Positions 12,095 to 35,739 of a stretch of DNA of 64,000 nt are shown here, in pieces. The notes beneath the pieces are model-generated. The model was not told the origin of the DNA. It made no database searches and saw nothing but the letters and a program-made list of their open reading frames with translations. Position 1 is the stretch's first letter. Each line of letters opens with the position of its first letter. Source of the DNA: Clostridia bacterium (lineage in GTDB: Bacteria; Bacillota; TC1; UBA5767); NCBI GenBank assembly GCA_016887505.1, contig CP069393.1:310001-374000 (forward strand), given 5' to 3'. Both the position numbers and the translations under genes were made by a program.

Positions 12095-12110
12095 ATGCAA
12101 ACGATTGCAT
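12095..12110. promoter_or_regulatory. LacI-type operator O1a upstream of the BMP transporter
   Basis: ATGCAAACGATTGCAT, a near-perfect palindrome of the LacI/GalR type. A TATAAT lies at 12076-12081, so the site would cover about +7 to +22 of a transcript from it. A sister site lies 56 bases downstream, centre to centre. Confidence 0.75.
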
Positions 12111-12151
12111 AAATTAAAAACCTTGTAAAAAAAGGAATAAAACGCTAGAAG

Positions 12152-12165
12152 AACAAACGTTTGCA
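12152..12165. promoter_or_regulatory. LacI-type operator O1b upstream of the BMP transporter
   Basis: AACAAACGTTTGCA, with the perfect core CAAACGTTTG at 12154-12163. The same core recurs at 16889, 18085, 18118 and 21675 in this locus. Confidence 0.8.
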
Positions 12166-12212
12166 AAATTATGATGAATACTGTTGCTATTTTGATGTGC
12201 GGGAGGAAGATT

Positions 12213-13244
12213 ATGAGAAAAATGAAATGGGTTGTAGCATTGATGCTTGTATTGACAATGGTTTCTTCAATTGTCGGATGTGCGAGTGAAGAAGAGCCTC
12301 AAGTTGAACCTGAAGAAAATGGAACAGAAGAACCTGCAATGGAATCGTTAAAAGTGGCATTGCTTTTGGATGGCAACATTAACGATGGTGGATGGAATCA
12401 GCTGCCCTATGAAGGCTTATTGAAGGCTGAAACAGAATTGGGAATTGAAGGAGACTTCACCGAACTGATTCCCCAAAATGAAGTAGCTACAATCATGAGA
12501 GATTACGCAAACAAGGGATACGACTTAATCATCGCCAACGGATATACATTTACCGATGCATTGAATGAAATCTCCGAAGAATATCCGGACATTATGTTTG
12601 TTGGTATGAACATACCCAATGCCGGACCAAATCTGTCAACTGCTAGAATCGAGTATGGTACGAGCGGATATTTGGCTGCTATGGCATCGGCAAAGATGAC
12701 GAAAACGAATAAGGTCGGCATAATTAGTGCAGTGGAATCCCCTCAGATGCAGGCTGATCTCAATAATATGATGCGAGCATATGATGAACTTGGTACTGGA
12801 ATTGAAATTAAATCGGTATACACCGGTGATTGGGCTGATGTGAATAAAGCCAAACAGGCTGCTGTTTCTTTGGCTGATGAAGGTGTGGATGTAATTATCA
12901 ACAGAATTGATGGAGCAACGCAGGCGGTCGCTGACGTGGCGAGAGAAAAGGATGCTAAAGTAATCGGTTGGTCTGGAGATGAAGCACCATTGGATCCGGA
13001 TATGATTGCTACCAGTCTAGTGATTCGTAATGACATAGTACTATATGCCACGATTGAAAAAATTATGAATGACGGTTACACTCCTGGTGAATCCGTTCAG
13101 TTGGGCATTGAAACTGGAGCCGTGGGTTATGGTTCATTCGGCAACGTACTTAGCGAAGAGGATGTAGCAGAGTTAATGGGTATCCAAGATGATATCATGA
13201 ATGGCATCATTGTATTGGATACTTCAGTAGAAGGCTGGGACTAG
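12213..13244 (+). CDS. BMP-family ABC transporter substrate-binding lipoprotein
   Basis: A 343-residue extracytoplasmic binding protein. The start at 12213 has GGGAGGA five bases upstream. An N-terminal signal with lipobox SIVGC predicts lipid attachment near residue 23. The mature protein matches the BMP/Med (PnrA/YufN) family, with DGGWNQLPYEGL near the N-terminus, IIANGYTFTDAL and the late GAVGYGSFG. Known members bind purine or pyrimidine nucleosides, or occasionally other small ligands. It heads a four-gene importer and is preceded by two LacI-type operators, so its ligand is probably the compound broken down by this locus or a relative of it. Confidence 0.9.
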   Translation: MRKMKWVVALMLVLTMVSSIVGCASEEEPQVEPEENGTEEPAMESLKVALLLDGNINDGGWNQLPYEGLLKAETELGIEGDFTELIPQNEVATIMRDYANKGYDLIIANGYTFTDALNEISEEYPDIMFVGMNIPNAGPNLSTARIEYGTSGYLAAMASAKMTKTNKVGIISAVESPQMQADLNNMMRAYDELGTGIEIKSVYTGDWADVNKAKQAAVSLADEGVDVIINRIDGATQAVADVAREKDAKVIGWSGDEAPLDPDMIATSLVIRNDIVLYATIEKIMNDGYTPGESVQLGIETGAVGYGSFGNVLSEEDVAELMGIQDDIMNGIIVLDTSVEGWD

Positions 13245-13284: not shown

Positions 13285-13330
13285 TTGCATTTATATCTAA
13301 GTATATTTGTCAGTAGTAGTGGAGATTATA

Positions 13331-14896
13331 ATGGAAAAACTTGTAGTTAAAAACCTTAGTAAGAGTTTTGGAAGTGTGAAAGCGAATCAACACGTTGACC
13401 TTACTGTGGAGAGTGGCGAGGTCCATGCTATACTAGGCGAAAATGGAGCCGGAAAAACTACATTGATGAAATGTATCTATGGTTTACACAAGATTGATGA
13501 AGGCGAGATATACTATGAAGGCGAAAGTATGGAGAATCATTCTGTAAGTGATTCGATTAAGAAAGGCATAGGTATGGTGCATCAGCATTTTATGCTGGTT
13601 CACAATATGAATGCTGCAGAAAATGTCATGATTGGCTTAGAGGATATCGGTAAGGTGTTCATTAATCAGAAAAGCGTTGAAGCTAGGTTATCCGAAATCA
13701 TGGACAAGTACCATCTGCATGTAGATATGAACTGTCAAATTCAGAATATGTCAGTGGGGGCTCAACAGAGAGTGGAAATTCTCAAGGCCTTGTATAGGCA
13801 GAGCAGCTTGCTGATTCTTGATGAACCAACTGCTGTCTTGACCCCGCAGGAGATTGAAGATCTCTTTCGGTTTATTGAAGAATACATCAGGCAAGACAAT
13901 TCTGTTGTGTTGATAACGCATAAATTAGATGAAATTATGAAAATTGCTGACCGTATTACAGTGATGCGTGCCGGTGTTAAAACAGGAACATTTCGTAAAA
14001 CAGATATAAAAGATAAAAAAGAACTTGCGGAGAAAATGATGGGTGAAAGCATAGAATGGGACATAAAACGCAAGGTGAATACAGAAGGACTAGAAAAAGT
14101 ACTTGAGGTAAAGAACCTAGTCGTTCGGGATAATCGGGGACTTAATGCTTTAAATGGAGTAAGCTTTGATCTGCATAAGGGTGAAATTCTTGGTGTGGCT
14201 GGTGTGTCAGGCAATGGTCAAACAGAATTGGCAGAGGCACTGGCAGGACTAAGGCCAATTCATGAAGGTGAAATTTTCTATGACGGTGAGAATATTGCAA
14301 ACATGAGTCCTAGAAAAATTCAGGAGATGCAGATTCGATATATCCCTGAGGACCGACATCGTGTTGGATTGATTTTGGATTATTCACTACGTGATAATTA
14401 TATGTTGGGTAAATTTTATGCTGAACCAAGTAGCCATGGTTTGAGACTGGACCATAAATACAACAATGATATGTCTGAAAAATTGTTGAAAGAGTACAAT
14501 GTTATGGCGACCGATATATGGCAGAAGGCACGTACTTTATCCGGTGGCAACCAGCAGAAAATTATTCTTGGAAGGGAATTGTCAGCTGAACCCCGGATTT
14601 TAATTTCTACACAGGCGACGCGTGGCTTGGATATTGCATCGACCATATTTGTGCAGCAATGCATCATGGAGCAGAAAGAGAAGGGTACTGGCATTCTCTA
14701 TATATCCACAGAATTGGATGAAATCATGGAAATATGCGACCGTGTAGTTGTATTTTATGAAGGCAGAATAATCAAGACTTTCATGACAGGAGAACTCGAC
14801 AAGTGGCAGATTGGTTTGCTGATGGCAGGTAATAAAGACCATCAGTCAATGAGTTGCAAGAGGGAAAAAGGAAATGAAAATACTCGAGAAGTTTAA
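13331..14896 (+). CDS. Sugar/nucleoside ABC transporter ATP-binding protein (two ATPase domains)
   Basis: A 521-residue tandem ATPase of the YufO/RbsA/MglA type. First domain: Walker A GENGAGKTT, signature MSVGAQQRVE, Walker B LLILDEPTAVLTP. Second domain: degenerate P-loop GVSGNGQTELAEAL, as is normal for this family, signature LSGGNQQK and Walker B-like ILISTQATRGLD. The start at 13331 has GGAG six bases before it; the upstream ATG lacks a site. It overlaps the next permease by 23 bases, showing translational coupling. It would power uptake of the ligand bound by the BMP protein. Confidence 0.93.
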   Translation: MEKLVVKNLSKSFGSVKANQHVDLTVESGEVHAILGENGAGKTTLMKCIYGLHKIDEGEIYYEGESMENHSVSDSIKKGIGMVHQHFMLVHNMNAAENVMIGLEDIGKVFINQKSVEARLSEIMDKYHLHVDMNCQIQNMSVGAQQRVEILKALYRQSSLLILDEPTAVLTPQEIEDLFRFIEEYIRQDNSVVLITHKLDEIMKIADRITVMRAGVKTGTFRKTDIKDKKELAEKMMGESIEWDIKRKVNTEGLEKVLEVKNLVVRDNRGLNALNGVSFDLHKGEILGVAGVSGNGQTELAEALAGLRPIHEGEIFYDGENIANMSPRKIQEMQIRYIPEDRHRVGLILDYSLRDNYMLGKFYAEPSSHGLRLDHKYNNDMSEKLLKEYNVMATDIWQKARTLSGGNQQKIILGRELSAEPRILISTQATRGLDIASTIFVQQCIMEQKEKGTGILYISTELDEIMEICDRVVVFYEGRIIKTFMTGELDKWQIGLLMAGNKDHQSMSCKREKGNENTREV

Positions 14897-15914
14897 ACTT
14901 AAGGGCTTAGCAAGTCTGGTTTTCCCAATATTGTCCATACTGTTAGGACTGTTTGGAGCGGGCATAGTAATCGCCTTGATGGGTGTAAATCCTATCTTGG
15001 CCTATAAGGAAATGCTAAGCGGTTCTTTGGGATCTTTCTATGGTCTATCTACCACTTTGCTACGATTCACGCCACTTGCCTTTGCGGGTCTAGCCGTGAC
15101 GTTGGCCTTTAGAGCAGGGGTATTCAACATAGGAGTTGAAGGACAACTTTACATGGGGGCACTTTTTGCTACTTGGGTAGGCACTTCTTTTGCATTCTTA
15201 CCAGCCATAATCCATATGCCATTAGCACTATTAGTAGGTGGCTTGGCAGGCGGATTCTGGGGATTCATACCAGGCTATTTTAAGGTGAAATACAATCTAA
15301 ATGTTATTCTCGTATCCATATTTCTTAATTTTGTTGCTATTAATTTGTTGGGCGCAGCAGTGTCTAGCGTGCTAAAGGCACCAGGACAAGGGATAACGTG
15401 GAGTGCCAAAATACTGGATAGTGCTGAATTGCCATATTTTCCGGGAACAACGTTACATGTCGGTATTTTGCTGATATTCATATTGGGATTCCTGTTACAC
15501 TACATAATGAAAAATACCACCATTGGCTATGAAATCGATGCGGTTGGCCTTAATGAGGATGCCTCCCAGTATGGAGGAATTAATGGCAAGAAAGTCATCA
15601 TGTTGGCCATGTTTTTTAGTGGTTTTATCGCATCCTTTTCAGGGAGCGTTGAGATTTTGGGTATACAACATAGGCTTACAGAAAACTTTTTAATTGACTA
15701 TGGATATAATGCCATACCGGTTGCTTTACTGGGCGGGTTACATCCCATAGGGACCCTGATATCTGCTTTCCTTTATGGAGCCATTATTAATGGATCAAGC
15801 TCTATGCAGATTACCATGGGAGTTCCAGTTTCCATTGTTAAGATTATCATGGCTCTCGCCATCCTTGGTTCAATTGGCATGAATGGTGTGAGAAAAATAG
15901 TATCTAACAGATAA
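14874..15914 (+). CDS. BMP-type ABC transporter permease 1
   Basis: A 346-residue inner-membrane permease of the BPD_transp_2 (YufP-like) family, with about nine hydrophobic helices. The characteristic region FRAGVFNIGVEGQLYMGALFA is present, and the segment GYEIDAVGLNEDASQYGGI is the family's ATPase-contacting loop. It overlaps the ATPase gene and is followed 13 bases later by the second permease. Confidence 0.92.
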   Translation: MKILEKFKLKGLASLVFPILSILLGLFGAGIVIALMGVNPILAYKEMLSGSLGSFYGLSTTLLRFTPLAFAGLAVTLAFRAGVFNIGVEGQLYMGALFATWVGTSFAFLPAIIHMPLALLVGGLAGGFWGFIPGYFKVKYNLNVILVSIFLNFVAINLLGAAVSSVLKAPGQGITWSAKILDSAELPYFPGTTLHVGILLIFILGFLLHYIMKNTTIGYEIDAVGLNEDASQYGGINGKKVIMLAMFFSGFIASFSGSVEILGIQHRLTENFLIDYGYNAIPVALLGGLHPIGTLISAFLYGAIINGSSSMQITMGVPVSIVKIIMALAILGSIGMNGVRKIVSNR

Positions 15915-15927: not shown

Positions 15928-16839
15928 ATGGAGTTATTTATCGTATCGGGCTTGATATTAACGATACCGATCCTTCTAGCATCAATGGGCGACCTGTATG
16001 CTGAAAAAAGTGGGGTACTAAATCTGGGGATTGAAGCCACGATGCTTATGGGGGCTTATTTTTCCTATCATTTCGCATATTTTCTAGATAGCGCAGCGAA
16101 GGGAATTTTTGTTGCTCTCGGTATCGGAGTTTTGATTGCGTTAATCAATGGTCTTTTTTTGGTTACACTCAAGGTGGACCAAGTTGTTTATGGTGTAGGA
16201 ATTAATATGTTGGCAGCTGGCCTGACCAGCACCTTATTTAGAAAATCGTTTGCCATCGGCAGTGGCTATGAAAAATGCCCGTTATTACCGAAGATACAAA
16301 TAGAGGCTTTAAACGGAATTCCATATATAGGAAGCATATTCAACAATCAGAATATATTGTTCTACCTAGCCATAATTATGGTTGTCGTAACCATAATTGT
16401 ATTGAAAAAGACGAAAGCAGGACTCGTCATTAGAGCAGTTGGCGATAATCCGCACGCTGCCGACTCTCTGGGAGTCAGCGTGGTCAAGGTTCGTTATCTA
16501 TGTATATTGGTAAGCACCTTGTTTGGAGTGTTAGGTGGAAGTGCTCTGACCGTTGGAGATTTGAGATTCTTCCAGGATGGAATGACAGCTGGTCGTGGTT
16601 ATATCGCTTTGGCTACAATCATATTTGGACGTTTCAGTCCATTGGGGGTTTTGATGGGTGCATTGCTTTTTGGTATGGCAGATGCCTTGCAATTAAAAAT
16701 GCAGGTACTCGGTTCACAAATCCCTTATCAGTTGTATATCATGATGCCCTATGTAGTTACACTGGTTGCGTTGTTTATTGTAGGCTCATCGATTGCCCCA
16801 AAATATCAAGGCAAACCCTTCTATAGAGACCGAGATTAG
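15928..16839 (+). CDS. BMP-type ABC transporter permease 2
   Basis: A 303-residue second permease (YufQ-like), with about eight to nine helices. The paired motif AEKSGVLNLGIEATMLMGAY and the cytoplasmic loop GLVIRAVGDNPHAADSLGV are typical of this half of the heterodimer. AGGAGAAG precedes the ATG. It closes the importer operon; about 190 bases with another operator follow. Confidence 0.92.
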   Translation: MELFIVSGLILTIPILLASMGDLYAEKSGVLNLGIEATMLMGAYFSYHFAYFLDSAAKGIFVALGIGVLIALINGLFLVTLKVDQVVYGVGINMLAAGLTSTLFRKSFAIGSGYEKCPLLPKIQIEALNGIPYIGSIFNNQNILFYLAIIMVVVTIIVLKKTKAGLVIRAVGDNPHAADSLGVSVVKVRYLCILVSTLFGVLGGSALTVGDLRFFQDGMTAGRGYIALATIIFGRFSPLGVLMGALLFGMADALQLKMQVLGSQIPYQLYIMMPYVVTLVALFIVGSSIAPKYQGKPFYRDRD

Positions 16840-16886: not shown

Positions 16887-16900
16887 TACAAACGTTTGAA
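16887..16900. promoter_or_regulatory. LacI-type operator O2 upstream of the dehydrogenase
   Basis: TACAAACGTTTGAA, core CAAACGTTTG at 16889-16898. It lies about 130 bases before the start codon of the 2-hydroxyacid dehydrogenase gene. Confidence 0.75.
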
Positions 16901-17026
16901 TTTGCGAATTGGTAGCGCGTTTGAATTATTACTGTGAATATCTACAGTCGTATTGGATAAGAGAGTAGAGTGCTTTTTTCAGATCTGATAGGACTGAGAA
17001 TATTAAAATCTGAGGAGGACGAGTTT

Positions 17027-17965
17027 ATGAAAAGAGTATTGATTGCAAATGGTGAAGACTTGAAAATATCCATTACATGGTCGCCATTGGACAAGATTTT
17101 GCAAGAGAAATTGCAGGCTGTTGGGTATAGCGCAGATATTGAGTCATTTTCTGACAAAGAACTGAAAGATTCAATAAATGGGTATGATGTTCTTGTGGTT
17201 GGCGAAAGTTTAAAAGTTGATAAAGAAGTCATCGAGGCAAGCAACCTTAAAATGATTGTTAAAGCTGGTCGCTTTTTTAACAATATTGACATCGATGCTG
17301 CTAAAGCCAAAGGAATTATTGTAAAAAACACTCCAGAGTGTAGCCGAAATGCCATAGCAGAATTGATTCTAGGACATATCGTATCGGTTTCTAGGTTCTT
17401 TTTCAAGACCTTTAAAAATATGCCAGAAGGAATATGGGATCAGGCTTCTTGCACAGGTATTGAATTAAGCAATAGGACATTGGGACTTGTTGGATTTGAT
17501 AAAACTGCACAAATACTAGCTAAAAAGGCCGCAGCTCTAGGAATGAAAGTGAGATATTGGGATATAAATGGCAAAGCAGAAGGCTTTGACGAATACGAAT
17601 ATAGAGAATTCAATGCATTAATTTCTGATTCTACTTATCTTTCCTTGCATGCAGAATATGACCCTGCAAAAGGCTATATTATGGGTGAAAAAGAATTATT
17701 TAGCATGGAAAAAGGTGGAAACCTATTCAATTGTACTGACGGTAGATTGGTTGATGAAAAAGCCTTGCTAAAAGCCTTAGGTGCTACTATGGCAGATATG
17801 CATTTGTTCGGAGCTGCCCTTGATGTATTTGAACAGGAACCGACTACTAATGCAGAATTAATGGCACATAGTAGAGTTTCTTTGACTCCGCATATTGGAG
17901 ATTCTACATATGAGGCGAATACTGCAAGAGTTGATGAAATTGTTGATATAATCCAAAAAAATTGA
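17027..17965 (+). CDS. Divergent D-2-hydroxyacid dehydrogenase family protein
   Basis: A 312-residue protein with the PGDH-like fold (substrate domain, Rossmann domain, short C-terminal return). The start at 17027 has GAGGAGG about ten bases upstream. The catalytic Glu (DVFEQEP) and His (LTPHIGDST) are present. The active-site Arg of the usual NTARG motif is replaced: here the stretch reads NCTDGRLVDE, placing Asp at the Arg position. The dinucleotide loop reads GLVGFDKTA where GLIGFGRIG is usual, losing two glycines. So either NAD binding and substrate are unusual or the protein no longer catalyses a normal dehydrogenation. It sits between two operator regions inside the locus. Confidence 0.8.
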   Translation: MKRVLIANGEDLKISITWSPLDKILQEKLQAVGYSADIESFSDKELKDSINGYDVLVVGESLKVDKEVIEASNLKMIVKAGRFFNNIDIDAAKAKGIIVKNTPECSRNAIAELILGHIVSVSRFFFKTFKNMPEGIWDQASCTGIELSNRTLGLVGFDKTAQILAKKAAALGMKVRYWDINGKAEGFDEYEYREFNALISDSTYLSLHAEYDPAKGYIMGEKELFSMEKGGNLFNCTDGRLVDEKALLKALGATMADMHLFGAALDVFEQEPTTNAELMAHSRVSLTPHIGDSTYEANTARVDEIVDIIQKN

Positions 17966-18082: not shown

Positions 18083-18096
18083 TACAAACGTTTGCA
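18083..18096. promoter_or_regulatory. LacI-type operator O3a upstream of the corrinoid protein gene
   Basis: TACAAACGTTTGCA, core at 18085-18094. It is paired with O3b at a centre-to-centre distance of 33 bases, close to three helical turns. Confidence 0.85.
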
Positions 18097-18115
18097 ATAT
18101 TTTTTTAGAAATGTA

Positions 18116-18129
18116 TACAAACGTTTGCA
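18116..18129. promoter_or_regulatory. LacI-type operator O3b upstream of the corrinoid protein gene
   Basis: TACAAACGTTTGCA, identical to O3a over the 14 bases, ending ten bases before the AAGGAG of the corrinoid gene. Confidence 0.85.
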
Positions 18130-18151: not shown

Positions 18152-18826
18152 ATGGAAGTACTGGAGAAAATTGCTCAAGTTATCTACGAGGGGGACACGG
18201 AAAAAACTATTGAGTACGCAAAACAAGCAGTCGCAGAAGGATTAGATCCCAATGTCATAATAAATGACGGAGGTGTTAAAGGCCTTGATAAACTTGGCGA
18301 GGACTTTGACAATTTGGAAGTCTTTTTGCCGGAGCTTATGCTGGGTGCTGAGTCAATGAAAGCCTTGATTGCTGAGATGGCTCCATTGCTCGAAGCTCAA
18401 GGAGAAAGCGCGTACAAAGGTACCGTTGTAATAGGATGTGCAAAAGGTGACCTGCATGATATTGGGATGAATCTTGTTGCAACACAGCTAGCAATTAATG
18501 GTTTTAAAATCTTCAATATGGGCACGGATGTAGGTGTTGGTGAGTATATTGATAAAGCCAAAGAAGTGGATGCAAATATCATTGCGGTATCATCTTTAAT
18601 GACTACTAGCGCATATTACCAAGAGGAACTGGTATCTAGACTATCGGTTGAAGGCTTAAGAGATAAATATAAAGTGGTTGTTGGAGGAGGTCCCATTACT
18701 CCTACCTGGACTAAGAAAATTGGAGCGGATGGATATTCACGGACTTCAAACTTAGCAGTCGATTTATGTATCGATTTGGTTGGAACAGATGCCAATACTC
18801 AACAAGAACCGTTGATTTACGAATAG
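18152..18826 (+). CDS. Methylamine-type corrinoid protein (MtmC/MttC-like)
   Basis: A 224-residue cobalamin-binding methyl carrier. The start at 18152 is fixed by AAGGAG seven bases upstream; earlier ATGs overlap the operator. Residues about 1-88 form the helical cap domain typical of MtmC/MtbC/MttC and MetH. The B12 domain has the lower-axial ligand motif D100-L-H102-D-I-G105, then VSSL (147-149 region) and VGGG near 177-180. It accepts a methyl group on Co(I) from a substrate-specific methyltransferase and passes it on. It is 18 bases upstream of an MtmB-family gene, the natural partner. No reductive activase gene is in this window. Confidence 0.93.
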   Translation: MEVLEKIAQVIYEGDTEKTIEYAKQAVAEGLDPNVIINDGGVKGLDKLGEDFDNLEVFLPELMLGAESMKALIAEMAPLLEAQGESAYKGTVVIGCAKGDLHDIGMNLVATQLAINGFKIFNMGTDVGVGEYIDKAKEVDANIIAVSSLMTTSAYYQEELVSRLSVEGLRDKYKVVVGGGPITPTWTKKIGADGYSRTSNLAVDLCIDLVGTDANTQQEPLIYE

Positions 18827-18844: not shown

Positions 18845-20242
18845 ATGAGTCATTCAATAAAAGAACTAATCAAATATATGGACCGAGGAAAAAGAGGAAG
18901 AAGAGTACCTGAAAGGGAATGGGATAATGTAATAGTTCCGCAGACTCTTAATGAAGTAGCCAAAAAATATGGTTTGCTTAAAACTTGCGATTTAAAGAAT
19001 CCTGTAAACATGGATCTTGAACTTGCGGATACATTTTATAAGGCTGGTAAGGAAGTAGCTCTTAGATTGGGTCTATATAATACCGATACAGAAACCATAA
19101 CTACGATTACTGAAGAAGAATTGGAAGCTAGCCTCAAAGCGGCTCCCTCCAAATTGGTCCTTGGAAAAGGCCTTAATGAGGTAGTAATTGAAGCTAGAAA
19201 ACCTGAAGATGGTGTTTCTCCAGCTTTTGGTGGACCTCTATCTATCCAAATGAATGAAGAATACTATGTTCCGCTCATTTCAGAAACTTTAAAAAGTAGA
19301 CTTGTAGATGTTCATGAAGGACCATCTTTGGATACAATTTATGGATCACCATTGTTGGCCAATACGCCTTATGAGACTGCGGCCTCATTCTACGAGATGG
19401 AAATGCGTAAAAAGGCACAGTACTTAGCCGGCAGACAAGGGATGCCCAATATGTTGGTATCTAGCTCTAGCACAGAATACGGAAATTTGGCGACATTTGC
19501 TATGTGGGAACAACCTCAAATAGCTTTGGTACTGATCCCATCTTCCTTAAAAACTAACTATTGTTCTTTACATAAATGTGTTCAAACGTTAGCGGTAGGC
19601 GGATATATTGAGTCTGGTTCACCTAACATGATTGGTGGTTTCACAGGTGGCCCCGAAACTACAGCACTTTCAAATATCGCGGACGATTTATTGCAGTATT
19701 CAATTCACCAAGCCCATATGTCAGGTGCGCCATGCTACGACATCAGATATTCTGGCAACTGTGACCGTCATGCGTTATGGTCACAAAGTATTTCAACTCA
19801 AGCAATAGCTCGTAATACTCACTTGATTATGCTTAAAACCATTAACCAAGTAGCAGGCCCATGTACTGAAATGTTTTATAAAGAATCAATAGTTGGATTT
19901 GCAGCGAATTCAGCATCAGGATTAACCTATACCATTGGACCAAGATCTGCCGGTGGAAAGTATAAGAATCACTTAACACCTCTTGATATTTGGTTTGCAG
20001 CAGCTTGTCATAAAGCTGGAGGCAAGATTACGCTTAAAAAGGCCAATGAAATTGCAAACACGTTGATTCCTGAGTACGAAAAATGGCACAAGGAAGATCC
20101 ACCAGCAGGCAGACCTATCAACGAACTATATGATATGGATACAATGATACCTATTCCAGAGCACAAAGAAATGTACCTGCGGATGAGAAAATTGTCAGCT
20201 GAACTTGGAATGCCGTTGCCATCTGATGGTATCTACGATTGA
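18845..20242 (+). CDS. MtmB-family methyltransferase without pyrrolysine
   Basis: A 465-residue homologue of monomethylamine:corrinoid methyltransferase MtmB (about 458 residues in Methanosarcina). Shared landmarks include AGR-x-GM (195-200), a late GPCTEM (338-343) and a PAGR stretch near the end. In archaeal MtmB the amber-encoded pyrrolysine lies three residues after AGRPGM; in an ungapped alignment the codon here is ATG, giving Met203, and no in-frame TAG occurs anywhere. It is therefore a natural non-pyrrolysine relative, by analogy with the MtgB/MtpB/MtcB members of the MttB family that act on quaternary amines. It should methylate the adjacent corrinoid protein from an unidentified, probably N-methylated, substrate. 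AAGGAGAAAATAG precedes the start. Confidence 0.87.
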   Translation: MSHSIKELIKYMDRGKRGRRVPEREWDNVIVPQTLNEVAKKYGLLKTCDLKNPVNMDLELADTFYKAGKEVALRLGLYNTDTETITTITEEELEASLKAAPSKLVLGKGLNEVVIEARKPEDGVSPAFGGPLSIQMNEEYYVPLISETLKSRLVDVHEGPSLDTIYGSPLLANTPYETAASFYEMEMRKKAQYLAGRQGMPNMLVSSSSTEYGNLATFAMWEQPQIALVLIPSSLKTNYCSLHKCVQTLAVGGYIESGSPNMIGGFTGGPETTALSNIADDLLQYSIHQAHMSGAPCYDIRYSGNCDRHALWSQSISTQAIARNTHLIMLKTINQVAGPCTEMFYKESIVGFAANSASGLTYTIGPRSAGGKYKNHLTPLDIWFAAACHKAGGKITLKKANEIANTLIPEYEKWHKEDPPAGRPINELYDMDTMIPIPEHKEMYLRMRKLSAELGMPLPSDGIYD

Positions 20243-20335: not shown

Positions 20336-20418
20336 TAGTAATAGTATGAGTAGCCGAATGGGATTATAAATAAAACTGAATGGATTGTATGTTTTGCTCA
20401 GTTGGAAAGAGGAGTCGC

Positions 20419-21444
20419 ATGAAGCAGAAGGAACAACTTATCACCATTTCGGATATTGCAAACATGGCAGGTCTGAACCCTTCAACCGTTTCAAGAGTAA
20501 TTAATCATCCAGAAATGGTTAAAGATGAAACCAAAAAGCGTGTGCAGGCTCTTCTCATTGAACATAACTATCAACCTAACTTGCTTGCGCGAAGTTTGCA
20601 GACCAAAAAAAGCGGTATGATCGCTCTGGTAGTTCCTAACTTTACCAACTTGTCTTTTACCAAATTTGCTAGAGGAGCCCAGGTTGGGTTGCAGGAAAAA
20701 GGATATACTATGTTGACCTTTAGTACTCATGAAAGTGAGGAATGGGAAAAGCGTATCCTAAGTGATATTGCAAGATTGAGACTTGATGGAGCAATTATCA
20801 TGTCGACTACCGACCAACTTCCATTCATGGATATTATTCCACAGACTACAAAAATTGTTTTGATAGATCGAGATGCTTCAAAGGAAGGAATTGATTCCCT
20901 TTACTTTGATTACGTACAAGCCTTTGACACACTAATAAAATACTTGAAAAATAGAAATCATAAAAAAATCGCATTGCTTATGGGTGGGCGAAAATCATAT
21001 ACAGGGAAAATCCGTGAGAAAGTATATCGTAATGCGATGAAGAAATATGGTTTAGATGTAAAGGATGACTTCATCAAAGAAGCTTTATGGAGTGCTGCAG
21101 AAGGATGGAAAGCATGTAATAGTTTAATGCAACAACCGGAAAAGCCGACGGCTATCATTGCCGCTACAGACTCTATTGCTTTTGGTGTGATGGGTTACTT
21201 GGAAAATATCAATTATAGAATACCGGAACAAATTTCAGTAATAGGTTTTAACGATGAGCCTTTAAGTAACTATCTTTATCCAAGGCTGTCAACTATGGCT
21301 TGTGATCAATATGATCTGGGATTAGATGCTGCACTTACGATGGTTTCCAGAATTGAGGGAACGCAAACAGGTGTGGTAAAACGTTCATATAAAATGCATT
21401 TAATTGAAAGAAATACAATAGGATACGCAAACATAAGTGAATAG
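20419..21444 (+). CDS. LacI-family transcriptional regulator 1
   Basis: A 341-residue LacI/GalR repressor. The N-terminal helix-turn-helix (about residues 5-50) contains ISDIANMAGLNPSTVSRVINHP with the hinge-region AR-x-LQTKKSG, then a periplasmic-binding-protein-like effector domain (VALVVPNFTNLSF through PTAIIAATDSIAFG). The start at 20419 has AGAGGAG upstream. It sits between the corrinoid unit and the transporter/catabolic operon. The six CAAACGTTTG-type sites in the locus are LacI-type palindromes, so this protein or its paralogue at 35740 probably binds them. The effector is presumably a pathway substrate or intermediate. Confidence 0.93.
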   Translation: MKQKEQLITISDIANMAGLNPSTVSRVINHPEMVKDETKKRVQALLIEHNYQPNLLARSLQTKKSGMIALVVPNFTNLSFTKFARGAQVGLQEKGYTMLTFSTHESEEWEKRILSDIARLRLDGAIIMSTTDQLPFMDIIPQTTKIVLIDRDASKEGIDSLYFDYVQAFDTLIKYLKNRNHKKIALLMGGRKSYTGKIREKVYRNAMKKYGLDVKDDFIKEALWSAAEGWKACNSLMQQPEKPTAIIAATDSIAFGVMGYLENINYRIPEQISVIGFNDEPLSNYLYPRLSTMACDQYDLGLDAALTMVSRIEGTQTGVVKRSYKMHLIERNTIGYANISE

Positions 21445-21672: not shown

Positions 21673-21686
21673 TGCAAACGTTTGCG
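21673..21686. promoter_or_regulatory. LacI-type operator O4 upstream of the large catabolic operon
   Basis: TGCAAACGTTTGCG, core CAAACGTTTG at 21675-21684, about 36 bases before the start of the ECF S-component gene. The rest of the 21445-21672 gap contains an AAAGGAGGG not followed by a credible gene. Confidence 0.8.
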
Positions 21687-21721: not shown

Positions 21722-22333
21722 ATGGGTGATAATGAAGTTCGAGTGCGAGAAGCCATTCATAAACCATCAACTATTCATATCATGACAGCGGCGGTTTGGG
21801 CAGGTATTATTGCAGTTTTACAGGTTATATCTATGTTAGGATTCTCAATTTCTGCTGTTATCGTATCTTTGAATGTGGCTGTTAGCCTTTATGCTGTATC
21901 AGGATTATGGTTCGGTGTTTGGGGAATTCTAGGAGCATGTGTCGGAATGATTATTGGGAATACCATTGGTGGCTTGCCAATATCAATCGTACTACTATTT
22001 CAATTAGCAACAATTTTTGAAATTGCGGTTCCGATGATTGCATTCAGATGGTTTGGTTGCGACCCAAGATTAAGAGACTTGAAAAGCTGGGTAGTATGGA
22101 TAATATCTGCATCAATTATCGCAAGTGGTATATCCAGTATTTTCAGCGCCTGGTATGTAGTACTAGGTCAAGCAGCTCCTGAGTTTTGGTTATATGCAAT
22201 CCTTCCTGGGTGGTTCGCTGGTTCAGCCATTGGTCGAGCTGTTTTAGGTGGCCTAGCATTGGTGGTCCTAACTCCATTTATTCAACGCTTTAGAGGCTAT
22301 GTTCCAAATGAGAAGGATCGTTGGATCGCTTAA
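21722..22333 (+). CDS. ECF transporter S-component-like membrane protein
   Basis: A 203-residue hydrophobic protein with about six predicted helices and a glycine-rich core (VSGLWFGVWGILGACVGMIIGNTIGG), the look of an energy-coupling-factor substrate-binding subunit. Context is the main support: it is followed by a T-component (interrupted) and two ECF-type ATPases in the same operon. I cannot assign it to a named vitamin family. AAAGGAGAAAATT precedes the ATG, and operator O4 lies just upstream. The ligand is probably the locus substrate or a cofactor needed for its breakdown. Confidence 0.75.
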   Translation: MGDNEVRVREAIHKPSTIHIMTAAVWAGIIAVLQVISMLGFSISAVIVSLNVAVSLYAVSGLWFGVWGILGACVGMIIGNTIGGLPISIVLLFQLATIFEIAVPMIAFRWFGCDPRLRDLKSWVVWIISASIIASGISSIFSAWYVVLGQAAPEFWLYAILPGWFAGSAIGRAVLGGLALVVLTPFIQRFRGYVPNEKDRWIA

Positions 22334-22347
22334 GAGAGGAGAAAACA

Positions 22348-22485
22348 ATGAGTACAGAACAAGAATTAGCAAAGAAGCAACAATTAAAATGGGCAAAAAT
22401 TATTAAAACTTATGTCGTGCTATATTGTTTGTTATCTGCTGGCCTTTTGATTTATGCATTGAGAATGGTGGCTTCAGTTAATTAG
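22348..22485 (+). CDS. Small single-helix membrane protein between ECF S and T genes
   Basis: A 45-residue protein with a basic/polar N-terminus (about 1-18) and a single hydrophobic segment (about 22-42, VVLYCLLSAGLLIYALRMVA). GAGAGGAGAAAACA gives a strong ribosome binding site, 14 bases after the S-component stop. Its placement suggests an accessory subunit of the transporter. I do not recognise a family. Confidence 0.7.
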   Translation: MSTEQELAKKQQLKWAKIIKTYVVLYCLLSAGLLIYALRMVASVN

Positions 22486-22499
22486 CTATTAATGTTATC

Positions 22500-24008: not shown

Positions 24009-24855
24009 ACACCCACTTGCAAGGATGAGTCTGATTCTGGTATTTAATATACCGTTTCTGATGGCTAATCCAATTATTAATATTTTCTTTTTGGTTATGG
24101 TATTGGCACTTTATCGAATAGCAAAAGTACCGAAAGCATATTTTATGAAGTTCTTGCCATTTGGCATAACGCTAACTTTCTTCCTATTTCTAACCTATGC
24201 ATTTTTTCCATCTATTTATATAGATCCACCATATAAATATAACTTAATTACTATTGGCGCATTCACATATCATTTCGAAAATCTCATCGTTTCAATTGCT
24301 ATGTGGCTCCGTTGGATGCCAGCAATTTTTGGAGCGTTGTTTGTATTTGCGATTATTGATGAAAAAGATATCAACATCGCACTAAAAACACTACGCGTAC
24401 CATTCTTTTTAAGACTTGTTATTGCGACCGGACTAAGATGCTTTTTTTCTTTTTACTATGATGCAATGCAAATCCTGGAAGCACAGAAGGCCAGAGGCCT
24501 AGACTTCATGAATATGAATATCTTTCGAAGACTCAAGTATTATATCGCTATCTTGGTACCACTAGTTATGATCGAGATGCAAAAAGCAGATTCTATGTCT
24601 GATGCAGCCGATTCACGTGGTTATGTTCCCTTTGATGAAGGAACTGGTGAAAAGATTGAAAGAACAGAATTTATCGGAAGAGATGTAGTCATGGAAGCAA
24701 AGGATAAAGTGGTATTGATCGGTGCAATTTTACTATTTGTCGTGTTCATTGGCTTGAATGCTATTCCTGAAACTTCCGCAGTCTTACAATGGGTGCCGTC
24801 ATCCATGAGCGAATTGATAAGCCTTTAGTAATCATAGAAAAATGGGAGGAAAATA

Positions 24856-25689
24856 ATGGATAATGCCTATATAAGCGTTCAGGATGTACAGTTTGTTTAT
24901 CCTGATGGTACACAAGCTTTATTTGGAACATCGATGGATATAGGGCAGGGAGAGATGCTATCCATCATTGGACAGAATGGTTCAGGAAAGACTACTGTAG
25001 TTAAACTTTTTAACGGGATTCTAAAACCTACAACAGGTAAGGTTATCGTAGATGGTAAGGAAACAAAAGATGAATCTACAGCAGTTTTGGCGCAGAAAGT
25101 TGGTTATGTTTACCAAAATCCAAGTCTACAATTATTTCGTAGAAGTGTAAGAGATGAAGTAGCTTTTGGACTACGCCTTCTTAAGAAAGATGAAGAAGAA
25201 GTAAACAAAATAGTGGAAGAATCACTACGAATGATTGATATGTGGGATAAGGCAGATGAATATCCATTTTTGTTGACTATGGGAGAAAAGCAAAGGGTTG
25301 CCATCGCAGCGGTGTTAGCTTTGGGACCTGAGGTGCTTATCGTAGATGAACCTACAACAGGCCAGGATTTCAAACGTGCCTACCAGTTTCTACAACTATT
25401 TGAAAAATTAAACAGAGAACATAATAAGACAATTATTTTCATTACCCATGAGATGCGTTTTTCAGCTGAATTTGCTAGAAGAACCATCGTGATGGCTAAC
25501 GGAAAAGTAATACTAGATGATGAAACTTCAAAGGTATTTAACAATATACCAAAACTAGAGGAAGCATTTGTTACCCCTCCGGAAATTGTTCTTTTGGCTT
25601 CAAAATTGAATAATGAAGGATTTAATAAAGAAATTATGACAGTTAAAGGTTTGAATAAAGAATTCAAATTAGCAATGGGAAGGAGGTAA
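24856..25689 (+). CDS. ECF transporter ATPase A1
   Basis: A 277-residue ATP-binding subunit of an energy-coupling-factor importer. Walker A GQNGSGKTT, Q-loop YQNPSLQLF, Walker B VLIVDEPTTGQD and the switch His in FITHEM are present. The ABC signature is unusual: MGEKQR replaces the normal LSGGQKQR, so the ATP site that uses it may be less active. GGGAGG precedes the ATG. It is followed two bases later by the partner ATPase. Confidence 0.9.
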   Translation: MDNAYISVQDVQFVYPDGTQALFGTSMDIGQGEMLSIIGQNGSGKTTVVKLFNGILKPTTGKVIVDGKETKDESTAVLAQKVGYVYQNPSLQLFRRSVRDEVAFGLRLLKKDEEEVNKIVEESLRMIDMWDKADEYPFLLTMGEKQRVAIAAVLALGPEVLIVDEPTTGQDFKRAYQFLQLFEKLNREHNKTIIFITHEMRFSAEFARRTIVMANGKVILDDETSKVFNNIPKLEEAFVTPPEIVLLASKLNNEGFNKEIMTVKGLNKEFKLAMGRR

Positions 25690-25691
25690 AA

Positions 25692-26594
25692 ATGGGAAAT
25701 CAAATGATTAGTTTCCAAAACTTCTCCTGGACCTATGAAGGTTATGAAAAGAAGGCCCTGAATGATATCACACTGGAAGTGGGAAAAGGTGAGTTCATTG
25801 GGATAATGGGTCAAAATGATTCAGGAAAAACAACTTTATGTCGTGCCATAAATGGATTGATTCCTCATCGCTTCAAAGGAGATCTTGGCGGGAATGTAAT
25901 TTTAGCAGGTCAGTATGATTCTTTTGACACTGATTTAGCAACTCTAGCCCAAAAGGTTGGTATGGTGGGATCAGATCCTAGTGCACAGTTTCTAAGAGGT
26001 ACCGTAGAAGAAGAAATTGTTTTTGTAGCTGAAAATATGGGACTTAACGTAAGCGAAATTGAGGAAAGATTGAAGAACGTGCTGAGGACTGTAAATGTAA
26101 GTGATGAGTTTTTACAGAAGGCACCAACAGACCTTTCAGGTGGACAAAAACAGCGGGTAGCTATAGCTGCAGCTCTAATGGCAAGACCTGAGATTATTGT
26201 ATTAGATGAACCGACTTCGCAGGTTGACCCAATGGGAAAACAAGAAATTATTGAAGTTGTTGAAAAATTAAGAAAAGAACATGACATGACTGTTGTATTG
26301 GTCGAGCACAGATCTAATGAAATTTTAGAATATGCTGATCACGTAGCATTAGTGCACAATGGCGATTTAATAATGCATGAACCGCCCAAAATATTTTTCC
26401 GTCAAGTGAATAAGTTACTCGAATACGGTGTTTACCCGCCGCAGATTGCACAGTTTGGCAACGATGTAATCAGGGATCCGGATTTTGCTTATCTTGGATT
26501 TACCAATGATGATATTCCGCTAACTGTTGATGAAGGCTATGATTTCATATTAAACGCGCTGAAGAGAAGGGAGAAAAAAAATGTTGTATCGTGA
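25692..26594 (+). CDS. ECF transporter ATPase A2
   Basis: A 300-residue partner ATPase. It has a canonical signature (DLSGGQKQR), Walker B IIVLDEPTSQVDP and a switch His (VLVEHRS). The P-loop reads GQNDSGKTT, with Asp where Gly is common, but still fits GxxxxGKT. Together with A1 it should form an asymmetric heterodimer. It overlaps the next gene by 14 bases. Confidence 0.9.
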   Translation: MGNQMISFQNFSWTYEGYEKKALNDITLEVGKGEFIGIMGQNDSGKTTLCRAINGLIPHRFKGDLGGNVILAGQYDSFDTDLATLAQKVGMVGSDPSAQFLRGTVEEEIVFVAENMGLNVSEIEERLKNVLRTVNVSDEFLQKAPTDLSGGQKQRVAIAAALMARPEIIVLDEPTSQVDPMGKQEIIEVVEKLRKEHDMTVVLVEHRSNEILEYADHVALVHNGDLIMHEPPKIFFRQVNKLLEYGVYPPQIAQFGNDVIRDPDFAYLGFTNDDIPLTVDEGYDFILNALKRREKKNVVS

Positions 26595-27558
26595 TTTAGG
26601 AAAAACTGGATTAAAGGTTTCTGCATTAGGTTTTGGTGGCTGGGGAATTGGTGGCTGGAAGGGTGCTGAAGACTCTGAATCAATTCGTTCTATTGAAATG
26701 GCCATAGATGCTGGAGTAAATTTCTTTGACTCTGCACTTGGCTATGGTGATGGACATAGTGAAGAATTGATTGGTAAGGTTATTGGCTCTAAAGCTGATC
26801 GTGATAAATTTGTGGTTACATCTAAGATTCCACCTAACAACTGGGTATTTCCACAAGAGCCAGGCACTCCAATTAAAGAATCATATTCCAAGGAATGGAT
26901 TATTGAATGCACCGAAAAAAGTCTTAAAAACTATGGCTTGGATTATATAGACATACAACAATTTCATGTCTGGATCAATGATTGGCAAGGAGATGCTGAG
27001 TGGATTGATACTTTTGAACAGTTGAAGAAGGAAGGGAAAATCCGTTTCGTAGGACCTTCAATCAATTTCCCCTATTCTGAGGCAGACAATGGTATTGAAT
27101 CAATGAAACAAGGAGAATTTGATACAGTTCAGGTTGTACATAACATTTTCCAACAAGAAGCAGAAAAAGATATTTTTGTTACTGCTGCGGATAAAGGTGT
27201 AGGAATTATTACCAGATGTCCTTTGGACGAAGGTGCACTAAGTGGAAAAATTAATTCAAGCACAGTATTTCCTGAGGAAAGCTTTTTAGGTAGTTATTTT
27301 AAAGATGACAGACCACAGATTGTCGAAAAAAAGATTGCTGAAATGAAATGGTTAATTGACGAAGGATTTGTAGAGAATATGGCCGAAGCTGCCATTAGAT
27401 ATTGCATCAGTTTCCCAGTAGTTTCTAGCATTATTGTTGGTATGAGAAGTTCAAAACATACTGAAACAAACTGTAAGGCTATAGCGAAGGGTCCACTACC
27501 AGAAGAAGCTGTAAAACGTCTGAAAAATCATGCGTTTGATCACAACTGGTGGATATAG
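26581..27558 (+). CDS. Aldo/keto reductase
   Basis: A 325-residue NAD(P)H-dependent oxidoreductase with the TIM-barrel AKR fold. The N-terminal signature LGKTGLKVSALGFGGWGIGG is complete, the catalytic Asp and Tyr are in FFDSALGYGDGHSE, and Lys in VTSKIPP. The usual catalytic His is in the QQFHVW region. AAGGGAGAAAAAA precedes the ATG. It lies in the middle of the catabolic operon, where it would interconvert a sugar-like carbonyl and alcohol. Confidence 0.92.
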   Translation: MLYRDLGKTGLKVSALGFGGWGIGGWKGAEDSESIRSIEMAIDAGVNFFDSALGYGDGHSEELIGKVIGSKADRDKFVVTSKIPPNNWVFPQEPGTPIKESYSKEWIIECTEKSLKNYGLDYIDIQQFHVWINDWQGDAEWIDTFEQLKKEGKIRFVGPSINFPYSEADNGIESMKQGEFDTVQVVHNIFQQEAEKDIFVTAADKGVGIITRCPLDEGALSGKINSSTVFPEESFLGSYFKDDRPQIVEKKIAEMKWLIDEGFVENMAEAAIRYCISFPVVSSIIVGMRSSKHTETNCKAIAKGPLPEEAVKRLKNHAFDHNWWI

Positions 27559-27567
27559 GAGAAAACA

Positions 27568-28569
27568 ATGAATTCTCGTGAAATCATTATGGGTATACTG
27601 GATGGCAGTGTTGCTGGACCAGTGCCATGGGTAGAAATAGAAACTAGAGATGAATTAATTGCGAGAACTTATGGCCTAAAAGATGATGCTGTTGATTGGC
27701 CTACACGAGTGAGATATGCAAAAGAATTTGGGCAAGATGCCGTTGGGTTTTCACATTGGGAACGATTTGGTTGCGATGTTATCAACAATGGAGATGTGTT
27801 GGGATTTTCTGCCAGAATAAAAGACCAGAATGATATGGATAAATTCCTTATGCCGAAAGATATTGATAAAGAACGGTTAATTGAGAATGTTAAAAAAGCG
27901 AAGGAAGCTATCGGCGATTCTGGGTTAGCTTTATTTGTAGCTCATCTCCTTTGTCTTGATCCTGTAAGCATGGACATGGGATTCGAAAATTTTTGTGTAA
28001 GTTTATACACGAATTTGGATTTTGTTAAAGAACTCATGGAGCGTTATGTGGAGTATTACTCTAAGCTTGATGAATTATATAGTTCGCTTCCAGAAATAGA
28101 TTTTATATGGATAGGCGAAGATATTGCATTTAACAGTGGTACCTACATTCGACCAGAAATGTTTATGGAAATTGTTTACCCCTACTTCAAGCAGATTACA
28201 TCTCACATAAAAAAGCCTTGGATCTATCATAGCGATGGAAACTATGCTGCAGTTTTAGATGACTTGCTAAAGCTAGGAATGAGTGCAATTCATCCGATGC
28301 AACCGGAAGCGATGGATATTCGAGAGGTGAAAAGGAACTACGGAGATCGGGTTGCCTTAGTTGGCAATGTAAATCTGAATACTTTGAGCCTTAGCAGCGA
28401 AGCGGATGTCGAAGAAGAAGTGCGAGGACTGATGGATGATCTGCATAAGGGAGGCAATTATATGCTATCTAGCAGTAACTCTTTGGCAGCATGGTTAAAG
28501 CCTGATAATGTGATTGCTATGGGTCGTGCAAAGCGTGAATGGAATAGAGAACATGGTTGGGAATTTTAG
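27568..28569 (+). CDS. UroD-like corrinoid/cofactor methyltransferase
   Basis: A 333-residue protein of the uroporphyrinogen-decarboxylase superfamily (the MtaA/MtbA/CmuA-type methyltransferases). The metal-site region reads WIYHSDGNYAAVLDDLLKLG followed by IHPMQPEAMD, where MtaA-type enzymes have His-x-Cys; His is kept and Cys is replaced by Asp, as in many bacterial members. It is not a haem-pathway enzyme: no other haem genes are near and true HemE motifs are lacking. It may move the methyl group from the corrinoid protein to a pterin or thiol, or demethylate a second substrate. AGGAGAAAACA precedes the ATG. Confidence 0.82.
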   Translation: MNSREIIMGILDGSVAGPVPWVEIETRDELIARTYGLKDDAVDWPTRVRYAKEFGQDAVGFSHWERFGCDVINNGDVLGFSARIKDQNDMDKFLMPKDIDKERLIENVKKAKEAIGDSGLALFVAHLLCLDPVSMDMGFENFCVSLYTNLDFVKELMERYVEYYSKLDELYSSLPEIDFIWIGEDIAFNSGTYIRPEMFMEIVYPYFKQITSHIKKPWIYHSDGNYAAVLDDLLKLGMSAIHPMQPEAMDIREVKRNYGDRVALVGNVNLNTLSLSSEADVEEEVRGLMDDLHKGGNYMLSSSNSLAAWLKPDNVIAMGRAKREWNREHGWEF

Positions 28570-28595
28570 ACGATACATACAGGGGAGGTAAAAGA

Positions 28596-30044
28596 GTGAA
28601 ATCTGCATATTGTTTGAATTTTGATTTAGGAACTTCTTCCCTCAAAGCAGTCTTATACGATATAGACGGTGAAATACGATACAAGGATTCCGTTGAATAC
28701 GAATATGAGACACCACAAAGGGGTTGGGCAGAGTTTGATCCTAAAAATTGGGATGAAGCTCTTTGGACATTATTGCAACGTGTAGGGAAAAAATACTCCT
28801 TAGCAAAACTAAGAGGAATGAGTTTCACAGGGCAGATGCACTCCTTTGTAATGCTGGATGAGAACAACCAAGTACTTAAGCCATGTATACTTTGGCTTGA
28901 CCGTAGAGCACAGGAAGAGACTAGTATTCTAGAAAAGAAACTCAAATTACCATCCTACATGCTGAATAGTACGTATTCATTACCTAAAATGTATTGGCTC
29001 AGTAGGCATCTGCCAGAAATAGTCAATGAAGTGGATTGCATTTTATGGCCTAAAGACTACATTCGTTTTAAATTGACAGGCCTGAAAGCGACAGAATCGA
29101 CTGAAGGATTGGGTGCAGGTATCTTGAACTGGGATACTGGAGAGTTTGATGCTGACCGATTAAAAGCGATTGACTGGAATCCTAACGTATTACCTAACGT
29201 TTTAAAGGATGGGGAGGATGCTGGAAATATTTTGCCTGAAATCGCAGAAAAGTATGGCATTAACCCTGAGGTTAGAATTTTTGCAGGAGCTGGTGATATT
29301 TTAGCTTTGCTAGGTGGGGCTCCACATAAGAAAGGTAGACTTGTATATTCGTTCGGATCTTCTTCTATGTTTTTTGCTGAACTTGGTAAAGACGACCAGC
29401 CAGAAAACAAGGAACTATATAAGGTTGAAATGTTTGGCAGTAAGTTATACGGAGGTGTTTCCTCTACTACGGGTGCCTCACTGATGTGGGCTTTTGAAAA
29501 TATTTGGGAAAAGAAAACTGACTTCCCAGGTATGATCGATGCAGCCCAGACCATCGGACCCGGTTCAGACGGATTGGTATTTATCCCTTATTTATCTGGG
29601 GAAAGAAGTCCATATTGGAGCGATAGTATCCGCGCAGGATTCTATGGCCTCGAGTTGGCCCATAAAAAAGAGCACCTGCTGAAAGCAGTTCTGGAGGGTA
29701 TTTGTTTCAGTCTGCGGCAAGCAATTGAGATTTATGAACGCAACGGAATTGAGATTAATGAAATTGCCGTTGCAGCAGGAGGTGTGAGAATCAAGGGCTT
29801 TGTGCAAATGGTTGCTGATATCTGTCAGGTAAAAGTGAGCGTATACTCGGCACAAGAGACTGTAACCAATGTTCTGTTCGCTATGGCGAAAAGTGAATTG
29901 GAAGGTCAACCATTTAAATCAATACTTGCAGAAAGTTTCCAGAATGTTGAAACCGTTGAGCAAAACAGTGCAATGGTTTCAGAGTATGAAGAAGCATACC
30001 AGACATTTTTATCCTTCTCAAAGTATGCTTTTTTAAAGAAGTAG
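28596..30044 (+). CDS. FGGY-family carbohydrate kinase (xylulokinase-like)
   Basis: A 482-residue sugar or polyol kinase. The start is GTG at 28596 with GGGGAGG seven bases upstream; an in-frame ATG at 28557 overlaps the previous gene. It has the N-terminal ATP-binding motif FDLGTSSLKAVLYD, the FTGQMH and LWLDRRA substrate-region motifs of xylulokinases, and the C-terminal ATPase core (FGSSS, TTGAS and AAGGVRIKGFVQMVAD). Its presence implies that a pathway intermediate is a free polyol, ketose or similar hydroxylated molecule that is phosphorylated. Confidence 0.9.
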   Translation: MKSAYCLNFDLGTSSLKAVLYDIDGEIRYKDSVEYEYETPQRGWAEFDPKNWDEALWTLLQRVGKKYSLAKLRGMSFTGQMHSFVMLDENNQVLKPCILWLDRRAQEETSILEKKLKLPSYMLNSTYSLPKMYWLSRHLPEIVNEVDCILWPKDYIRFKLTGLKATESTEGLGAGILNWDTGEFDADRLKAIDWNPNVLPNVLKDGEDAGNILPEIAEKYGINPEVRIFAGAGDILALLGGAPHKKGRLVYSFGSSSMFFAELGKDDQPENKELYKVEMFGSKLYGGVSSTTGASLMWAFENIWEKKTDFPGMIDAAQTIGPGSDGLVFIPYLSGERSPYWSDSIRAGFYGLELAHKKEHLLKAVLEGICFSLRQAIEIYERNGIEINEIAVAAGGVRIKGFVQMVADICQVKVSVYSAQETVTNVLFAMAKSELEGQPFKSILAESFQNVETVEQNSAMVSEYEEAYQTFLSFSKYAFLKK

Positions 30045-30055
30045 GAAGGAGAAAA

Positions 30056-31480: not shown

Positions 31481-31499
31481 TTAGACCAAGGAGGTCGAA

Positions 31500-32516: not shown

Positions 32517-32520
32517 TATA

Positions 32521-33432: not shown

Positions 33433-33444
33433 GGAGCAAAAAAT

Positions 33445-34221: not shown

Positions 34222-34233
34222 GGAGGGTCTATT

Positions 34234-35268: not shown

Positions 35269-35739
35269 TGGCTTACTTGATTGTATTTGACACAGCTTAG
35301 TTTTCCTATACGGGATTGTAACGAAAATCTCTTGAAAATGGGCGATGTGATTATAAAATTGCTGAGATGTGCATGGATAGACCCCAAAAAAGGAATGGCC
35401 ACGCTAACCACCACTCCAAATTTTGGTTATTTTACACTATGAAAAAATGTAAAGAGGCATGTCCAAACAGCATTTTTCCGATCGCATGGCCCATTCATTT
35501 TGTATATGGTTTTGGAATACCATAGTGCCCCTGACTGTAAGGATGATTTTTGAGAAATTACTTGCGCATAGTCAGATTGACTATGGTTTATTTCTGCCTG
35601 CCTTCAAATTATAACAATTTTGAATAACATAGTACGAAGATAAGAATTGCTCATTCTTATGCAGTATAGTAGAATGTTTTAAGCTGCGATAAATTAACTG
35701 CTTTGTGTGGAATGCTTTTCGTGGTGGGAGAGGTGTAAC
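35269..35739. other. Intergenic region before the second LacI-type gene
   Basis: About 470 bases without a credible gene. It contains the hairpin listed at 35567 and no copy of the CAAACGTTTG operator. A TTGACA at 35287 has no -10 box at usable spacing. No riboswitch or small RNA is recognised. Confidence 0.6.
35567..35592 (+). terminator. Possible terminator of the catabolic operon
   Basis: CATAGTCA pairs with TGACTATG around a three-base loop, then GTTTATTTC. The T tract is imperfect and the site is 300 bases after the last stop, so this is tentative. Confidence 0.4.

Follow-up and report, generated by a model that had tools for sequence, protein, structure and literature searches.

Gene organization of the locus

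The protein at the centre of this study, here called P0001, is encoded at positions 18845..20242 (+) of the window, i.e., the whole stretch of 64 kb of DNA that was analysed. The gene is an unbroken reading frame for 465 amino acids with a TGA stop. The only Pfam match of P0001 is the MtmB family (PF05369), with 221.3 bits against a cut-off of 25 and coverage of profile positions 5–449 of 450; sequence comparison with the solved MtmB1 gave 8.8e-38. The AGRQGM and GPCTEM motifs are present, in line with the MtmB-family alignment of the original prediction. An AlphaFold2 model of P0001 (pLDDT 93.5), produced from an input of 36 window and locus proteins, superposes on MtmB of Methanosarcina barkeri (1NTH) with a Z score of 52.4 over 450 residues at 1.9 A. 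In contrast, MttB-type structures reach a Z score of about 23, far below 1NTH, and no MttB family model matched P0001, for which Pfam gave PF05369 alone and NCBIfam gave no match at E 0.001. P0001 is a genuine, intact, pyrrolysine-free MtmB-family protein, with the MtmB fold over its whole chain.

Directly upstream lies the gene of the cognate corrinoid protein MtxC (18152..18826, +; PF02310, PF02607), the adjacent B12-binding partner that had been noted before. MtxC carries a DLHDIG motif and scores 181 bits against TIGR02370, under the cut-off of 215 bits. Its gene ends in a TAG stop 18 bases upstream of the P0001 start, and this adjacency is kept in relatives. It is preceded by a gene for a D-2-hydroxyacid dehydrogenase family protein (16970..17965, +; PF02826/PF00389) and by the genes of an ABC importer. 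The importer consists of a BMP/PnrA-like substrate-binding lipoprotein (12171..13244, +; PF02608, 172 bits), an ATPase (13307..14896, +) and two permeases (14874..15914 and 15928..16839, both + and PF02653). PDB relatives of the lipoprotein include the atrazine periplasmic binding protein and TmpC. The whole importer is syntenic with the importer at locus L009 of Candidatus Formimonas warabiya DCMF, where the BMP protein flanking an MtxC-MtmB pair is 59% identical to the window lipoprotein; the identities are 58% for the ATPase and 67% and 62% for permeases 1 and 2, respectively. A LacI-family regulator (20380..21444, +; PF00356, Peripla_BP) follows P0001. A second one (35707..36759, +), whose true start probably lies downstream of the listed GTG, is 42% identical to LacI genes beside the MtmB-like genes of L009 and L010.

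A palindrome of the LacI type, TGCAAACGTTTGCA and close variants, precedes several of these genes. Two copies lie before the BMP gene (12096..12166; TGCAAACGATTGCA at 12096 and AACAAACGTTTGCA at 12152), one before the 2-hydroxyacid dehydrogenase gene (16887..16900), two before the corrinoid-protein gene (18083..18129; at 18083 and 18116) and one before the gene of an ECF S-component (21673..21686), at the start of a further gene block that we call module 2. With two mismatches allowed, no further sites were found in the 64 kb window. Similar palindromes occur upstream of the MtxC-MtmB pair in L005, L006, L010 and L072. In L009, the sole site with at most two mismatches separates the LacI gene from the BMP gene, and a site before MtxC appears when three mismatches are allowed; no site was found in the short upstream sequence covered for L007 and L008. 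We regard these palindromes as putative operators bound by a LacI protein.

Window region 1778-3882, in which an amidohydrolase gene precedes one whose product has two stretches of the FolB type, may be a further module for a nucleobase or a pterin.

Phylogenetic position and loss of pyrrolysine

A maximum-likelihood tree of 55 sequences places P0001 inside a clade of 26 members without pyrrolysine (Pyl), with support of 100/100 and a long stem; the Pyl-bearing sequences group apart from it, as a clade of 10. The original prediction had proposed a search for sister sequences with another residue at the Pyl position. The nearest kin of P0001 (74–83% identity) are found at L005, L006, L007 and L008, followed by the DCMF protein at L009 (61%) and relatives at L010, L011, L012 and L072. 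Several genomes carry more than one family member. DCMF has eight MtmB-family genes, one with TAG and seven non-Pyl. G002, a 2.6 Mb genome of the window's genus, has 13 MtmB-family matches, some of them partial, on several contigs, and several of these genes have their own corrinoid protein and PucR. The genome of the window contains a second MtmB-like gene (C1:1054413-1055762). A class-level search around G036 covered 20 genomes. In G005, a genome of the window's order, the MtmB-like reading frames of L096 and L097 are broken up and apparently represent decaying genes.

In the alignment with Methanosarcina MtmB, the column of Pyl202 is occupied by Met203 of P0001, encoded by an ATG codon (19451..19453, +), and TAG occurs nowhere in frame in 18845-20242. 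Both observations agree with the original prediction. TAG looks like an ordinary stop in the window DNA, because 24 of the 58 listed open reading frames end in it, the adjacent corrinoid gene among them. A hidden TAG or recoding in P0001 was rejected, as there is no TAG in frame and TAG is common as a stop. A sequencing artefact at the Pyl codon was rejected as well, since four close homologues on other contigs also have Met; further members besides these four read Met at this column.

The changes extend to the surroundings of the Pyl position. Glu229, Glu259, Gln333 and Tyr335 of MtmB are invariant across the nine Pyl-bearing sequences of the alignment; P0001 has Leu, Gly, Thr and Asn, respectively, in their place. 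We take Glu259, Gln333 and Tyr335 to be the residues that face or surround pyrrolysine in the MtmB structure. Gln333 and Tyr335 are missing from all 23 clade members in the alignment. Two clade members have a Glu aligned at column 259, and this column alone is thus not decisive. Because pyrrolysine and the MtmB residues around it are replaced in P0001 and its clade, the active site of P0001 is, as judged from the alignment, rebuilt beyond the loss of one residue.

The genome (99.2% complete) gave no match to the N-terminal family of PylS in a profile search. Its match to the C-terminal PylS model scored 23.5 bits against a cut-off of 178, and such matches below the cut-off are likewise present in 12 unrelated control genomes.

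Gene neighbourhoods across the clade

In nearly all loci of the clade, a corrinoid-protein gene adjoins the MtmB-like gene. Many of these loci, from several bacterial families, also contain genes of purine-type categories, namely xanthine dehydrogenase, SsnA/8-oxoguanine-deaminase-like hydrolases, PucR and BMP nucleoside-type ABC transporters. When all loci were counted in the same way, at least one such category was present in 17 of 22 clade loci, compared to 0 of 8 loci with a Pyl-MtmB (p=2e-4) and 4 of 20 control regions (p=5e-4), and at least two in 15 of 22 clade loci compared to 1 of 20 control regions (p=2.3e-5), where the reference genes were drawn from clade loci, the 20 control regions were hand-picked rather than random, several of the MAGs are near-duplicates, and the p values assume an independence of the loci that does not hold.

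At L009 of DCMF, the genes for the BMP protein, ABC ATPase, two permeases, MtxC and the MtmB-like protein are followed by those for YgeY (above cut-off), a YgeW-related carbamoyltransferase, an SsnA-like hydrolase, a molybdenum hydroxylase of three subunits and a fusion resembling PreA/YgfK. Judged by its predicted products, this flanking set resembles the reductive uric acid gene set (PMC12507026). Most of it is also present in L072 and L010. The hydroxylase accompanies an SsnA above cut-off in L011/L071 and a 94% identical SsnA in L012/L075. In the second branch, it occurs together with PucR and 8-oxoguanine-deaminase-like hydrolases. Other non-Pyl members adjoin genes assigned by Pfam to NCS1/NCS2 (cytosine/purine, xanthine/uracil) permeases, adenosine deaminase, adenine deaminase and PucR. 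PucR also adjoins the second MtmB-like gene of the window genome, with an XdhA equivalog (above cut-off) about 11 kb and an 8-oxoguanine-deaminase-like gene about 10 kb away.

Another DCMF locus (L170; 1861000-1880999) combines two non-Pyl MtmB genes with genes for purine permeases, PucR, MtrH, adenine deaminase and a protein like 8-oxoguanine deaminase. One of these two MtmB genes may be the dichloromethane-induced Ga0180325_111810.

Within 10 kb of P0001 itself, we found no xanthine dehydrogenase, PucR or YgeW/YgeY; one amidohydrolase gene lies at about 10 kb. Nor did we find these genes near the other four members of the closest subclade, two of which lie on contigs of less than 8 kb. The window locus is tied to the purine-type loci by the synteny of its importer and by its operator-like sites, as similar sites precede the MtxC-MtmB pair in relatives that lie amid uric-acid-pathway genes. 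For the window itself, the putative purine linkage comprises the importer and the operator-like sites only; the linkage across the clade is broader.

Genes of module 2

Module 2 (21722-35268) begins with a putative ECF transporter S-component (21722..22333, +), which has no Pfam match; homologues with 69–72% identity lie beside ECF-T or FTR-like genes in L121-L123. It is followed by genes for an ECF T-component and two ECF ATPases (24025..26594, +; PF02361, and TIGR04521 for the first ATPase), an aldo/keto reductase and a UroD-family (MtaA/MtbA-like) methyltransferase (26581..28569, +; PF00248, PF01208), and then an FGGY kinase, an amidohydrolase, a Zn-alcohol dehydrogenase, an FTR-like protein, a DeoC/LacD-type aldolase and another Zn-alcohol dehydrogenase (28557..35268, +). 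The LacI-type palindrome before the S-component gene suggests that these genes belong to the same regulon as the corrinoid/MtmB-like pair. The block recurs in L006/L124 and, partly to largely, in L120-L123. Its chemistry looks sugar-like or pterin-like, and a free methylpurine would leave it unexplained.

The FTR-like gene (32518-33429) encodes a protein of the formylmethanofuran:tetrahydromethanopterin formyltransferase family (PF01913/PF02741), and no other genes of the formylmethanofuran pathway were found near it. Close relatives (53–76% identity) occur in 4 of 398 genomes besides the window genome, and all four carry a close (59–81%) MtmB-like gene. The FTR homologues in L125-L127 are only about 30% identical and have different neighbours, and a true formyl-methanofuran pathway was rejected for this gene. 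The UroD gene raised the possibility of a type 1 mlp gene cluster. Such clusters have an arrangement of multiple Mlp proteins and an activase (PMC10418091). With a single UroD gene in the window and no activase beside it, we rejected this assignment too. A transposase gene (22676-23929), which we called IS256-type by eye, lies between the S- and T-component genes with imperfect inverted repeats on both flanks (22643-23991 in all) and may interrupt the ECF operon.

Possible function of P0001

We propose, with a probability of about 0.5, that P0001 is a corrinoid-dependent demethylase subunit for an N-methylated purine or a close N-heterocycle. Candidate substrates would be of the methylxanthine, methyluric acid or methylguanine type. 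The substrate would be taken up by the BMP-type ABC importer, after which P0001, as the methyl-abstracting subunit, would pass the substrate's N-methyl group on to Co(I) of MtxC, its neighbour with the DLHDIG motif. A MeTr-like protein encoded elsewhere would hand the methyl group to tetrahydrofolate, RACo would re-reduce the corrinoid, and the demethylated base would enter hydrolytic and reductive breakdown. The demethylation would proceed without oxygen. Parts of a corrinoid-dependent system are present in the genome, which encodes not only the adjacent B12-binding protein but also an intact RACo activase of 586 aa. Two MeTr-like genes lie outside the window, and MeTr-like genes adjoin MtmB-like genes in some relatives. 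The catalytic activity, the substrate and the methyl acceptor of P0001 are inferred.

Pyrrolysine might not be needed in this reaction, because a stabilised nitrogen of a heterocycle, and not ammonia, would be the leaving group. Xanthine and urate have acidic ring nitrogens that should serve reasonably well in this role, much as phenolate does in the known O-demethylases. Conversely, the nucleoside-type importer also suits other heterocycles, which counts against a purine-specific reading. Slightly more tentatively, and a little short of even odds, we extend the proposal to the non-Pyl clade, whose members could be purine N-demethylases that depend on cobalamin and work anaerobically. Paralogues, as suggested by the 13 matches in G002 and the eight MtmB-family genes in DCMF, could then each be specialised for another methyl position or another base. 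The original prediction had hinted at an extension of the quaternary-amine theme of MttB; the neighbourhoods of the clade point instead to methylated purines and N-heterocycles.

The genome of the window also encodes two homologues of methenyl-H4MPT cyclohydrolase (PF02289; L158:15469-16437 and L159:9216-10187), one adjoining a MeTr-like gene and the other within 8 kb of one. Together with the FTR-like gene, they hint at a reuse of C1-pathway enzymes in heterocycle breakdown.

It is chiefly because of module 2 that a substrate of larger size, or one with a sugar, stays a serious rival. P0001 might demethylate a methylated compound with a sugar-like or pterin-like part that is handled by module 2, in which case purines would concern its cousins only. 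The operator is common to modules 1 and 2, close FTR-like relatives turned up in no more than five genomes, that of the window among them, each of which also has a close MtmB-like gene, and module 2 adjoins MtmB-like genes in L006/L124 and shares a contig with them in G055. Yet, the importer that shares this operator matches that of the uric-acid-type cluster of DCMF in position and at 58–67% identity, and G055 and G158 each hold both module 2 genes and a purine-type cluster. On balance, we consider this alternative less likely than a purine-type substrate, and the strongest of the rivals.

An alternative explanation, which appears improbable to us, is that P0001 demethylates quaternary amines such as choline or tetramethylammonium. 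This is what MtqB does, the only characterised non-Pyl MtmB that we found and an enzyme of broad substrate range; MtqB, however, sits in its own branch near the Pyl-containing MtmBs (PMC13044021), and no choline or betaine gene was recognised among the neighbours of the clade. That P0001 is a monomethylamine methyltransferase working without pyrrolysine, as its family membership and fold and the weak monomethylamine activity of MtqB (PMC13044021) might suggest, is very hard to reconcile with the replacement of pyrrolysine and all residues facing it. A further objection is that DCMF keeps one TAG-bearing MtmB alongside its seven non-Pyl genes, a pattern in favour of a division of labour.

Demethylation of an N-methylated purine or related heterocycle would have several implications. 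To our knowledge, the enzymes described so far for the N-demethylation of caffeine and similar purines are oxygenases. We found no earlier report of corrinoid-dependent methylpurine demethylation in the open literature, most subscription journals lying outside this search, and as far as the searched literature goes the proposed role of the clade appears new. If true, many non-Pyl MtmBs now filed as monomethylamine methyltransferases or as proteins of unknown function would gain a substrate class, and the anaerobic breakdown of methylated purines would gain an entry enzyme. Methylated purines, methylxanthines among them, would become accessible to anaerobes, also as a source of C1 units. It would also offer a contrast that bears on the purpose of pyrrolysine, in that the same barrel would manage without it when the leaving nitrogen is pre-activated.

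Comparison with known systems

P0001 shares with MtmB of M. barkeri (1NTH/1L2Q) the fold over its whole length, the PF05369 family and an adjacent corrinoid protein. It differs in the lack of pyrrolysine and of the Glu/Gln/Tyr set, in its low identity (25%), in its gene context and in its genome, in which no Pyl synthetase was found.

MtmB proteins without pyrrolysine are already known as a kind since the description of MtqB. The original prediction knew of no characterised example, a remark that MtqB from Methanococcoides methylutens Q3c has overtaken; in March 2026 it was reported as the first non-Pyl MtmB for which a function had been demonstrated (PMC13044021). MtqB demethylates tetramethylammonium and choline, with weak activity on monomethylamine, and in the accompanying tree of 1,061 Pyl and non-Pyl MtmBs the remaining non-Pyl branches were called of unknown function (PMC13044021). 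Like P0001, MtqB belongs to the MtmB family, lacks pyrrolysine and has a corrinoid partner. Unlike P0001, it is archaeal; it acts on tetramethylammonium and choline and feeds coenzyme M.

A non-Pyl MtmB was noted earlier in strain DCMF (PMC9768040). This protein, Ga0180325_111810, is a bacterial non-Pyl member of the MtmB superfamily as is P0001, but differs in being induced under dichloromethane (PMC9768040). Among the eight MtmB-family genes of DCMF, one encodes the 61% homologue of P0001.

The MttB superfamily (MtgB, MtpB, MtcB, MtyB) comprises corrinoid-dependent N-demethylases with and without pyrrolysine. Its barrel is related to that of P0001 (Z about 23), but it is a separate family without a sequence match. 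Finally, several members of the clade are flanked by genes of the kinds found in the reductive uric acid pathway (XdhD, YgfK/UacX, SsnA, HyuA, YgeW, YgeY, YgeX; PMC12507026). The pathway as described has no methyl-removing step (PMC12507026), whereas the loci of the clade add a pair of MtmB-like and corrinoid proteins to it.
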